Positions 20,766 to 44,231 of a stretch of 45,557 nucleotides of DNA are shown here, one piece after another. The first letter of the stretch is position 1; the number at the start of each line of letters is the position of its first letter. The translations under genes were made by a program, and so were the position numbers. The stretch spans positions 1 to 45,557 of the forward strand of contig JAIXXV010000006.1 of assembly GCA_027490575.1 (NCBI GenBank), in the 5' to 3' direction. This stretch comes from a bacterium (lineage in GTDB: Bacteria > Patescibacteriota > Minisyncoccia > Phycocordibacterales > CAIZLB01). The notes beneath the pieces are model-generated. The model was not told the DNA's origin. It searched no databases and worked only from the letters and a program-made list of their open reading frames with translations.

Positions 20766-20961
20766 TGGCTGTGTAGGATATCTACGCAGTAGATATCTGA
20801 ACAGGCATCATGCGGGAGAATGTGTGGGATTGCAAACATCCCTGAATCAGCAGATTCACCTACTGGGTCCGTCTCCGCAAAACAAGGAACGCAGTGACTA
20901 TGTTTTGCGAGAGTGTAGTTTAAGGAGCTGATTTATCAGCGACTATAAACCCACCTCCGCA
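20766..20961 (+). repeat. Hairpin array A with tRNA 3'-end copies
   Basis: Two units follow the tRNA. The first has a perfect hairpin at 20777-20797 (GATATCTAC, GCA loop, GTAGATATC) and ends at 20867-20878 with GTCCGTCTCCGC, a copy of the local acceptor end. The second has the hairpin 20877-20908 (GCAAAACA/TGTTTTGC) with tip GA-AC-GCA-GT-GA, then a nested stem (GTTTA/TAAAC, GCTGA-TTTA-TCAGC), and ends CCTCCGCA at 20954-20961. Bases 20919-20965 are identical to 23160-23206. Confidence 0.85.
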
Positions 20962-22831: not shown

Positions 22832-22833
22832 CA

Positions 22834-23206
22834 TTAACAATATGAGCCAGCTTTAGCTGGTGAATATTGTTAACTAGTGGATATAGTAGGAAGCGTAGCT
22901 TCTGGGGATTCGAAAAGGTTCTTCCATATTTTCGAGAATTGAGCGTAGCGAAATTTAAGAAAATGGAAAACCTGTACTGATCCTGTAAGGATCGAATCCC
23001 TCTCTCTCTCCGCATTGACAGTACGAGCCAGCTTTAGCTGGTGAGTGCTGGCAACTTTAAGGTAGTGGGATCGTACCCATCCCTCTCTCTCCGCAGATTA
23101 ATGAGCGCAGCGAATATAATCTGCGAGAGTGTAGTTGAATCAGAAGATTCAACTACTGGTTTAAGGAGCTGATTTATCAGCGACTATAAACCCACCTCCG
23201 CATTGA
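22834..23206 (+). repeat. Hairpin array B with tRNA 3'-end copies
   Basis: Three units follow tRNA-Ser(ACU). B1 starts with a 10+5 bp hairpin (22834-22873), then a GAAGC-GTA-GCTTC hairpin, then a unit opened by GGGATTCGA (22905-22913) and closed by TCGAATCCC (22992-23000), ending with a 23-base T-arm/acceptor copy at 22992-23014. B2 is the hairpin 23015-23054, ending with CCCTCTCTCTCCGCA at 23081-23095. B3 is hairpin 23093-23124 (tip GA-GC-GCA-GC-GA), a perfect hairpin TAGTTGAATC-AGAA-GATTCAACTA, then a block identical to array A, ending at 23202. Confidence 0.85.
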
Positions 23207-23702: not shown

Positions 23703-23902
23703 TAAAGATATTTTCACAAAGTGAAAATATTCCCGCCCGGTACGAGAAAGCGGCCGATGGAGATTCTATAGTTGATTCGAAAAGCTTTACCTTATTTTGA
23801 AGACCTGTGGTCTAATAAAATGGTAAAGGTATACTCAAGACATAAGCTTCGAATCCCTTTCTGTAGGGACCGAATCGTTCATCTTACAACATAAGATGAT
23901 TA
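23703..23902 (+). repeat. Degenerate hairpin cluster C
   Basis: Several stems follow one another: ATATTTTCAC/GTGAAAATAT; an outer GATTCGAA (23774-23781) pairing with TTCGAATC (23848-23855) around CTTTACC.../...GGTAAAG and AGACC-TGT-GGTCT; and CATCTTA/TAAGATG. The plan GATTCGAA-hairpin-TTCGAATCCC repeats that of unit B1 with different inner sequences, so this is probably an older member of the same family. No functional tRNA is seen here. Confidence 0.65.
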
Positions 23903-41886: not shown

Positions 41887-42342
41887 ATGAAGAGCAAAAA
41901 CATCTTAGTAAACAACAAGAAAGCCTTTTTTAACTATGAGATCCAGGACTCCTATGAGGCTGGTATTGAGCTCATTGGAAATGAGGTAAAATCACTTCGA
42001 GCTGGCCATGCGTCACTTGAAGGCTCTTATGTATTGGTAAAATCAGGACAAGTTTACTTGCACAATGCTCGTATCTCCCCTTTTCAAGGTGTGAATGCTC
42101 CAAAAGACTATGACGAAAACCGTGAGAGAAAACTCCTTTTGCATAAAAAAGAGATAGTTGAGCTTACGAAAAATGAAACCGGTAAAGGGCACACCATCGT
42201 ACCTCTATCTATATATACAAACAATGGAAAGATAAAAGTTGAGATAGCAACAGCTCGTGGTAAGAAAGTTCATGACAAGCGCGAGACCATAAAGAAGCGT
42301 GACACTGATAGAGAGATACGGAGAGATTTTAAGAGTAGATAA
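41887..42342 (+). CDS. smpB: SsrA-binding protein SmpB
   Basis: SmpB binds tmRNA and delivers it to stalled ribosomes for trans-translation. The 151-aa protein has the OB-fold start NKKAFFNYEIQDSYEAGIELIGNEVKSLR, EGSYV, LHNARISPF, and the basic C-terminal tail KKVHDKRETIKKRDTDREIRR used in the decoding centre. AAGG lies four bases before the ATG. The tmRNA gene is 1 kb downstream on the same strand. Confidence 0.97.
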   Translation: MKSKNILVNNKKAFFNYEIQDSYEAGIELIGNEVKSLRAGHASLEGSYVLVKSGQVYLHNARISPFQGVNAPKDYDENRERKLLLHKKEIVELTKNETGKGHTIVPLSIYTNNGKIKVEIATARGKKVHDKRETIKKRDTDREIRRDFKSR

Positions 42343-42345
42343 CAG

Positions 42346-42411
42346 ATGGCAGATATCAGATGACAGTTAGCAGATAACAGATAGCAGATAACAGATAACA
42401 GATAGAATTGT
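42346..42411. repeat. TAGCAGATAACAG tandem repeat
   Basis: Degenerate repeats of AGATAACAGAT and AGATAGCAGAT follow smpB, then AAATTAAAATTAAGAATTG. They resemble the 3748-3788 cluster and, in the A/T part, those at 11966-12023 and 16602-16669. Confidence 0.75.
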
Positions 42412-43351: not shown

Positions 43352-43809
43352 GGGGATGCTAGGTATCGACATGTATGTACTCTGTTTGGTGCGCAATCGA
43401 GTATTCTAAAACCTCGTAAAACTTATAGAAAACATAAGTGCTAAAGCACAAAAAGCAGTCGTTTCTCCGTTCTTCGCAGTAAACGATTTTGCATTCGCGA
43501 CGGCTCGAGCCTAACACTGCTTCATTGCAGTGTGCTCGCCACACGACATCTCACTTCTCTTTGTTCGCTAGAGGATCTGGGGTGATATACCCGCGAAATA
43601 GGTTGATGAGTTTCTTCACTCACCCTCCGAAACCTTAGAAGATCGACTCTTTGATGTTTTGTTTATTTTTAAATCATTGAGTTCAAAGTCTGTACAGCTT
43701 ATGGATAAGATTAAGATCTCCACCGGCCTAGACAGCAAAAAACAAACTACATTGCGTAGACTCCACTCAGAACCATACTTGCACGCGGGTTCGATTCCCG
43801 CCATCTCCA
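43352..43809 (+). ncRNA. ssrA: tmRNA (transfer-messenger RNA)
   Basis: tmRNA frees stalled ribosomes and tags the nascent chain. The 5' GGGGATG pairs with 3' CATCTCC to form the acceptor; the T arm GCGGG-TTCGATT-CCCGC precedes it, and the length of about 458 nt is usual. The tag frame appears to run from GCT at 43440 to TAA at 43512-43514, starting AKAQKAVVSPFF and ending NDFAFATARA, and the stop is followed by the hairpin CACTGC/GCAGTG. Other frames stop early or give a charged tail. The gene ends ACA, lacking a full CCA, and continues directly into array E. Confidence 0.93.
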
Positions 43810-44010
43810 CAAAAACAACGAGCGAACATGGTGAGCGACTATGTTTTTGTAGGATGCCCGAGTGAATACGAGGGCGCCACATTAAACCTAAGGAACGAAG
43901 TGACTATAATTTTGTAGGATGCCACTGAAAGCGGCGCCACAATCTTATTAAGCGAACATGGTGAGCGACTATGTTTTTGTAGGATGCCCGAACGAAAGTG
44001 AGGGCGCCAC
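43809..44010 (+). repeat. Hairpin array E behind tmRNA
   Basis: Three units of 60-71 bp each end GGCGCCAC (43873, 43933, 44003). Unit 1 begins with a 9-bp stem ACAAAAACA/TGTTTTTGT (43809-43817 with 43842-43850) whose tip is GA-GC-GA-AC-ATG-GT-GA-GC-GA. Unit 2 has tip GA-AC-GAA-GT-GA (43893-43903). Units 1 and 3 share 41 identical bases (43821-43861 and 43951-43991). Each unit also contains TGTAGGATGCC and a second hairpin, such as CCC-GA-AC-GAAA-GT-GA-GGG in unit 3. Confidence 0.85.
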
Positions 44011-44231
44011 AAATAAACTATTTTTTCTAGAGACTTTTATAAGCCTAAATAATCATCAAAATTCCAGGTTGAAAATGACACCAAATCATATCGCCCATTG
44101 AAAACTCCACCCTCAGATGATATATTCCACTCAAACAACTCCCCTTCCTTCATCGCACCACGCGAGAAAGATGAAACAAAACCTTGAGTCTTTACTCCTG
44201 GGAAGGAGAAGATCTTTTATAGAAAACCAGT
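44011..44231. other. Intergenic spacer
   Basis: Nothing convincing was found between array E and the following membrane protein gene. Confidence 0.4.

Follow-up and report, generated by a model that had tools for sequence, protein, structure and literature searches.

What are the three hairpin-bearing units that directly follow the tmRNA gene (ssrA) of this patescibacterial genome, and what ties them to that place? The first-pass annotation of the window (the whole analyzed stretch of 45,557 nucleotides) had seen in them the design of arrays behind tRNA-Ser genes, and had proposed that such arrays are tied to RNAs with a tRNA-like 3' end in general. We followed the units through their own genome (772 kb in 42 contigs) and through related genomes. 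With moderate confidence we read them as members of a family of short non-coding cassettes, specific to one order, which stack on the 3' ends of tRNA and tmRNA genes and spread or convert between loci.

Results

The three units behind ssrA

The three units are present as first described (Table 1), and their GA-layered hairpin tips read as claimed. The tRNA-type 3' end of ssrA is CATCTCC-A43809, with the CCA unencoded (CACA instead), and A43809 is indeed both the discriminator and the start of the first stem. The cap hairpin of unit 1 (43809-43850) combines an A/T stem, in which ACAAAAACA (43809-43817) can pair with TGTTTTTGT (43842-43850), with two GA layers. It is followed by the arm GTAGGATG (43849-43856) and the body hairpin GGATGCCC-GA-GTGAATAC-GA-GGGCGCC (43852-43878), and the unit ends in AC. 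Unit 3 resembles unit 1 in tip and body. Both carry the second hairpin CCC-GA..GA-GGG, with the inner pair GT/AC in unit 1 and AC/GT in unit 3 as originally read, and the outer A/T stem is gone from unit 3. Unit 2 has AAGGAACGAAGTGACTAT at 43890-43907, a shortened body with CCACTGAAAGCGG in place of a GA-flanked second hairpin, and the end GGCGCCAC. AAGGAACGAAGTGACTAT differs by a single base from AAGGAACGCAGTGACTAT at 20884, as had been noted; the pattern common to the two places occurs twice in the window, where 0.17 occurrences are expected, and two were reached in 1 of 100 shuffles.

The array as a whole folds better than dinucleotide shuffles (z −3.89). Taken singly, units 1 and 3 do so as well, and unit 2 folds no better than chance (z −1.56, 17/200 shuffles); a full outer A/T stem is possible in unit 1 only, the 5' strand having diverged in the other two. 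Matches to the tmRNA 3' end downstream of the window's ssrA, whether copy or antisense, do not exceed 6 nt, so the earlier doubt about GGCGCCAC, that it only weakly resembles the tmRNA end, was justified. The array region (43800-44030) has no Rfam match up to E 5. At gathering score Rfam returned nothing except tRNA and tmRNA, and the RtT and T-box models were unmatched.

About 1 kb before ssrA lies an ORF (41887-42342) that we take to encode SmpB, the tmRNA partner. At its end, about ten copies of a 7-base repeat (AGATAGC/AGATAAC) occupy positions 42337-42405 of the window. On the minus strand, positions 486-556 hold a tRNA that scores low (47 bits), has CAT in its anticodon region and was not called by ARAGORN.

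Table 1. Features of the window: ssrA, its trailing units, and related arrays and cores.
Feature	Position	Strand	Basis or score
tmRNA gene (ssrA)	43352..43812	+	Rfam RF00023, 103.8 bits; sequence
Unit 1	43809..43880	+	Sequence; fold z −3.70
Unit 2, worn	43881..43940	+	Fold z −1.56, not significant
Unit 3	43941..44010	+	Fold z −3.57
Array behind tRNA-Ser(GCU)	20766..20960	+	Sequence; 11-nt copy of tRNA end
Array behind tRNA-Ser(ACU)	22832..23202	+	Sequence
Core A (model R1) behind tRNA-Ser(ACU)	22904..23001	+	105.2 bits
Weak orphan core A	23771..23858	+	33.4 bits, E 5e-5; nearest upstream tRNA 939 nt away

Units behind tRNA genes of the same genome

The DNA of the ssrA array matches two sites in its own genome, directly behind tRNA-Ser(UGA) (E 1e-9) and tRNA-Trp (E 1e-5), and the similarity to units behind tRNA genes is thus significant. 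Two kinds of unit occur 3' of the tRNA genes of this genome, a compact kind and a longer kind with a conserved core, termed core A. In compact units a short body comes after a cap hairpin that starts at the discriminator; such units stand behind ssrA, three tRNA-Ser genes, tRNA-His and tRNA-Trp, with a looser form at two tRNA-Glu genes. Seven of the eight core matches in the genome lie directly behind a tRNA gene (Val, Ser, two Arg, Tyr, Lys and Leu).

Both kinds meet in the window. Behind tRNA-Ser(ACU) the order is a cap, a core A unit (about 22872-23015), and compact units that run to 23094 and about 23202, each terminating in the tRNA-Ser-like CTCCGCA. The core A unit terminates in a copy of the tRNA 3' end (17 nt) and also holds 10 nt of antisense to it. 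Behind tRNA-Ser(GCU), a longer unit running to GTCTCCGC (about 20878) is followed by a compact GA-cap unit ending CCTCCGC. Across 34 RNA genes tested in the genome, an antisense of at least 9 nt to the gene's own 3' end lies downstream of 6 (2.5% of cross-pairs) and a copy of at least 10 nt downstream of 7 (1.9% of cross-pairs); ssrA, among the 34, has neither.

Copies of the 5' part of a tRNA (acceptor 5' strand or altered-loop D-arm) stand 40-110 nt upstream of tRNA-Phe (L043, with two tandem copies) and tRNA-Glu (L058, L060) in the same genome. These upstream copies are a 5' counterpart of the 3' units.

Core A is a covarying structure found across one order

A DNA search with the genome against its same-genus relatives gave one 23-base match, too little to use, and we therefore turned to structure models. 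The covariance model R1 was built from six tRNA-linked units of the genome, whose consensus has 34 pairs, 18 of them with both sides changed in some copy. R1 matches 120 of 247 genomes of the order, with up to 16 copies per genome. In a draw from the phylum, 7 of 379 genomes matched at E 1e-6, and all 7 belong to the same order. The core-bearing records that carry a name (19/24) are all Patescibacteria, including Taylor-, Zambryski-, Yonath- and Campbellbacteria, and the exact core pattern was absent from the viral contigs searched.

We pooled 147 core matches (8 from the own genome, 35 in the 29 loci L077-L105, and 104 in L066 and 80 stretches), a non-random sample in that the 80 stretches come from the best-scoring part of the match list. 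Of these cores, 98 have a tRNA or tmRNA gene on the same strand no more than 130 nt upstream. A further 21 follow another core, 5 stand at a distance of 131-350 nt and 3 farther away. The remaining 20 have no ARAGORN call in their stretch; among them are tmRNAs (L139, L066), a tRNA cut by the end of the stretch (L200), and a tRNA gene of G044 that a group I intron (RF00028) appears to interrupt and that is followed by a core A unit (L162). The hosts comprise 18 tRNA isotypes and tmRNA.

Covariation was counted in alignment A6, which holds 109 matches (E up to 1e-12) from 100 sources. It contains 853 cells in which both sides of a pair are changed, as compared to a shuffled mean of 218 (sd 21), and none of 500 shuffles reached that count. 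Pairing in the core is 95.9% and drops to 38-57% when the strands are slid. G-U pairs are more numerous than A-C mismatches (106 against 30), indicating that the forward strand is the folded strand; G-U makes up 3.2% of standard core pairs, as compared to 4.5% in tRNA acceptors and 6.1% in T-stems. A terminator-like hairpin with a T-tract lies between tRNA and core in 54 of 97 units. The conserved, covarying core follows such caps, and the units are thus more than intrinsic terminators. A literature search, whose coverage left out most subscription journals and preprints, listed no description of such units, and this family behind the tRNA and tmRNA genes of one group of Patescibacteria is apparently both large and undescribed.

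Besides core A there is another type of conserved core, core B (GGAATYGAA..CGGGGTCGCG..[hairpin]..CGTGACCRATTCC), which has the same kind of host-matched arms and is common behind ssrA (L018, L020, L011, L009, L031, L017, L137, L219). A hand-made pattern yielded 8 distinct copies, in which 6 of 20 aligned pairs have both sides changed.

The arms match the host gene

After the N73-C-A of the host, a unit consists of a cap hairpin (terminator-like or of the GA/GNA-loop type), a strand P1a complementary to the acceptor 3' strand of the host, a small hairpin hpA, a strand P2a complementary to the host T-loop and T-stem, the structured core and, often, D2, in which the host 3' end is copied directly. 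D2 ends at N73-C-A, where the next unit can begin. The first nine bases of the core region (P2a) are the exact reverse complement of the T-loop/T-stem 3' strand of the unit's own host in 56% of 98 units, as compared to 0.5% with other isotypes; no exact direct copy of the T-stem 5' side occurred.

For the acceptor we used 97 of the 98 units, omitting tmRNA. D2 matches the acceptor at 6 or more of 7 positions in 57 of the 97. Acceptor antisense is perfect (7/7) in 15 of 31 units without D2 and in 16 of 57 with D2, as compared to 0.3% in controls; nine units whose D2 scores 5/7 fall in neither class. We rejected the idea that P1a is a copy of the acceptor 5' strand. In the 35 tRNAs with a non-Watson-Crick acceptor the two can be told apart: 13 have an exact antisense and none an exact 5'-strand copy, and P1a therefore complements the 3' strand. 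P1a was placed at its best tRNA match, which biases the count of D1 against D2 (17 against 3), and that count was not used. The identity of D2 falls at the mature 3' end, from 0.88 at N73 and 0.83 at +1 to 0.62 at +2, 0.53 at +3 and about 0.4-0.5 thereafter.

A unit with D2 is predicted to fold like the acceptor/T-arm helix of a tRNA, with hpA in place of the D/anticodon region and the core in place of the T-loop. P1a could also pair with the tRNA itself; the acceptor antisense arm that some units retain without D2 is unexplained by the minihelix reading.

Units behind ssrA in related genomes

The comparison that the first-pass annotation had suggested, of the DNA behind ssrA and tRNA genes in relatives, was carried out for 29 ssrA loci, taken from the best-scoring 30 places in 61 genomes (L012, with a flank of only 12 nt, was omitted). 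In 11 of the 29 loci and in 0 of 334 control windows, a stretch of at least 11 nt within the 300 nt downstream matches the tmRNA 3' end exactly, as antisense or copy. Two genomes of the window's family, G010 and G013, have intact compact units behind ssrA that share an invariant GACTAT...TTTTGTAGGA with the window's units. These units and the 11 matching loci show that relatives do have arrays behind ssrA. R1 matches lie behind ssrA in G003, G027, G052 and G011 (L066, L007, L028, L010), with weak matches on the ssrA strand in G053 and G045 (L015, L026). No units were found behind ssrA of the same-genus G001 and G002, and the five compact ssrA units, when aligned, show little covariation (2 of 12 pairs). 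In G001 (L064) a tRNA-like sequence with T-arm, acceptor and an odd anticodon loop lies about 170-240 nt behind ssrA.

R1 itself has no match in the window's ssrA array at E 0.01, neither antisense nor copy of the tmRNA end is significant there, and only units 1 and 3 fold above chance. The link of this array to the family therefore rests on its cap, its position, its in-genome matches behind tRNA genes and its homologues in G010 and G013. That it is a decayed, compact, three-copy member of the order-specific cassette family is a reading on which we are evenly balanced.

The GA hairpin by itself is spread more widely. Its pattern AAGGAACGNAGTGACTAT has 31 matches in 247 genomes (3 for the backward control). 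Thirty loci were read: 8 lie within 400 nt behind a tRNA, where about 0.3 of 30 are expected by chance, 1 is the window's ssrA array, and 21 are elsewhere, one of these directly behind a core. Away from tRNAs (L252-L281), AAGGAACGNAGTGACTAT has a complementary stem and is often followed by TTAACCC- or ATCC-like bases, and there the hairpin is a wider repeat family. The proposed tie to tRNA-type 3' ends in general is thus borne out for whole units, found at 18 tRNA isotypes and tmRNA, and not for the GA hairpin alone. It is the whole unit (cap, antisense arm, body and 3'-end copy), and not the tip, that is linked to tRNA-type genes.

Cores are shared between loci of one genome

Core pairs from the same genome at tRNAs of different isotype are at least 80% alike in 32 of 155 cases, as compared to 8 of 321 pairs from other genera at the same isotype; the observed median similarity was never reached in 1000 shuffles of the genome labels. 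In G035, cores 92% alike follow tRNA-Ile, tRNA-Ala and ssrA, and their arms differ with the host. Similarly, cores 92-96% alike follow tRNA-Ala, -Arg and -Asn in G208, and cores 91% alike follow tRNA-Ile and -Tyr in G114, each with its own arms. Between G033 and G113, two genomes of one genus, tRNA genes with the same anticodon differ in occupancy: a core unit is present at Asn, Glu(UUC) and Arg(UCU) in G033 only and at Glu(CUC) in G113 only. Exact empty-site boundaries could not be drawn between these two, the flanks being too diverged. A duplicate in G123 (L078/L130) was set aside. Its second core has only the last bases of the tRNA, but the flank is duplicated in inverted orientation and may be an artefact of assembly.

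Discussion

In the cassette reading that we favor, copying or conversion would carry cores from one tRNA-type locus of a genome to another, and the units would act as a folded single strand, most likely as read-through RNA. The tRNA-matched arms together with D2 would leave the host gene a tRNA-type 3' end that can still be processed, which would let insertions be tolerated and arrays grow. The compact ssrA units have cap and body and lack the conserved core and a recognizable host-end copy. Gene conversion among units already in place would account for the shared cores with no need of mobility. The terminator-like hairpins in 54 of 97 units imply that transcription from the tRNA promoter would seldom reach many of the cores.

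The main rival to the cassette reading is a regulatory role of the antisense arm. In read-through transcripts P1a and the acceptor 5' strand would be rivals for pairing with the acceptor 3' strand, and the unit would thereby switch or check the folding, 3' processing or dosage of the tRNA or tmRNA. The arm complements the 3' strand, with 13 exact antisense and no exact 5'-strand copies among the 35 informative tRNAs; it is retained, and more often exact, where D2 is absent (15/31 against 16/57); and the excess of G-U over A-C fits a folded transcript. Such control is nevertheless on the unlikely side, given a presence so patchy that no units were found in the same-genus G001 and that corresponding tRNA genes of one genus differ, the terminators between tRNA and arm in more than half of the units, and a window in which no arm matches tmRNA.

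A more specific proposal, unlikely on present evidence, is a new class of mobile non-coding element that uses the tRNA 3' end as landing site and also as template. A conserved core would move between tRNA and tmRNA loci, and at each landing the arms would be recopied from the 3' end of the host RNA, in antisense and in sense, so that the element would be hidden behind the mature tRNA terminus. Against the cassette reading itself, we found no mobilizing enzyme, and a Y1 transposase (PF01797) was rejected as the driver because it is absent from the core-bearing genomes G000, G003, G006 and G007.

That absence also weighs against DNA-level hairpin repeats of the REP or attC kind, in which the single-stranded forward strand would fold and be moved by a recombinase or transposase acting in trans at tRNA 3' ends, with D1 and D2 as crossover repeats. 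The direct repeats D1 and D2 do end at the tRNA 3' end, the copies are multiple and patchily distributed, orphan GA hairpins occur away from tRNAs, and the caps carry GNA triloops and GA/GA layers, which are highly stable in DNA as well. We found no enzyme that is linked or co-distributed, however, and the core pattern is absent from viral contigs, which makes this account improbable.

Least likely of those considered is that local tandem duplication, together with template switching at palindromes, amplified the terminators and 3'-trailer hairpins of tRNAs, with arms that have no function and match their host only through the mutation mechanism: the cap stem often continues into the antisense arm (complementarity 0.75-0.82 at +1 to +3), as fold-back copying would give, and units 2 and 3 of the window are worn, but a strongly covarying core, order-wide and common to unrelated tRNA loci, is unexpected from neutral local duplication, and for core-bearing units this explanation is already hard to hold.

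In genomes of about 1 Mb, a structured, protein-free family whose sequence follows that of each host tRNA would amount to a new kind of genetic parasite or a new layer of tRNA/tmRNA control. The family and its working covariance model offer an RNA target for transcriptomes of a barely cultured branch.

Four known systems invite comparison. The rtT repeats (Rfam RtT) in the tyrT operon of E. coli are also arranged in tandem behind a tRNA gene, and each of them terminates in a copy of that gene's 3' end. They are one locus with one tRNA, whereas the units described here serve many isotypes and tmRNA, have antisense arms, hairpin caps and covarying cores, and lack an Rfam match; the host-end copy is present in 57 of 97 core units and absent from the window's ssrA units. 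REP/REPIN elements with RAYT, a Y1 transposase, are also short, multi-copy, structured intergenic repeats. Ours stand behind tRNA-type genes with host-matched arms, and some core-bearing genomes lack the Y1 domain (Y1_Tnp). Mobile DNA classically lands at tRNA 3' ends: the att sites of tRNA-targeting integrative elements use or copy them, and integron attC sites are folded strands. No integrase or cargo lies between the repeats here, the units, a few hundred bases at most, having no room for such genes, and an antisense arm and an RNA-like core are present. Finally, tRNA-like structures and T-box RNAs have an acceptor/T-arm-like helix and possible pairing with tRNA, whereas the present units, unmatched in Rfam, lie 3' of the tRNA gene, and the complementarity seen in them is to the acceptor 3' strand of that gene rather than to the anticodon.
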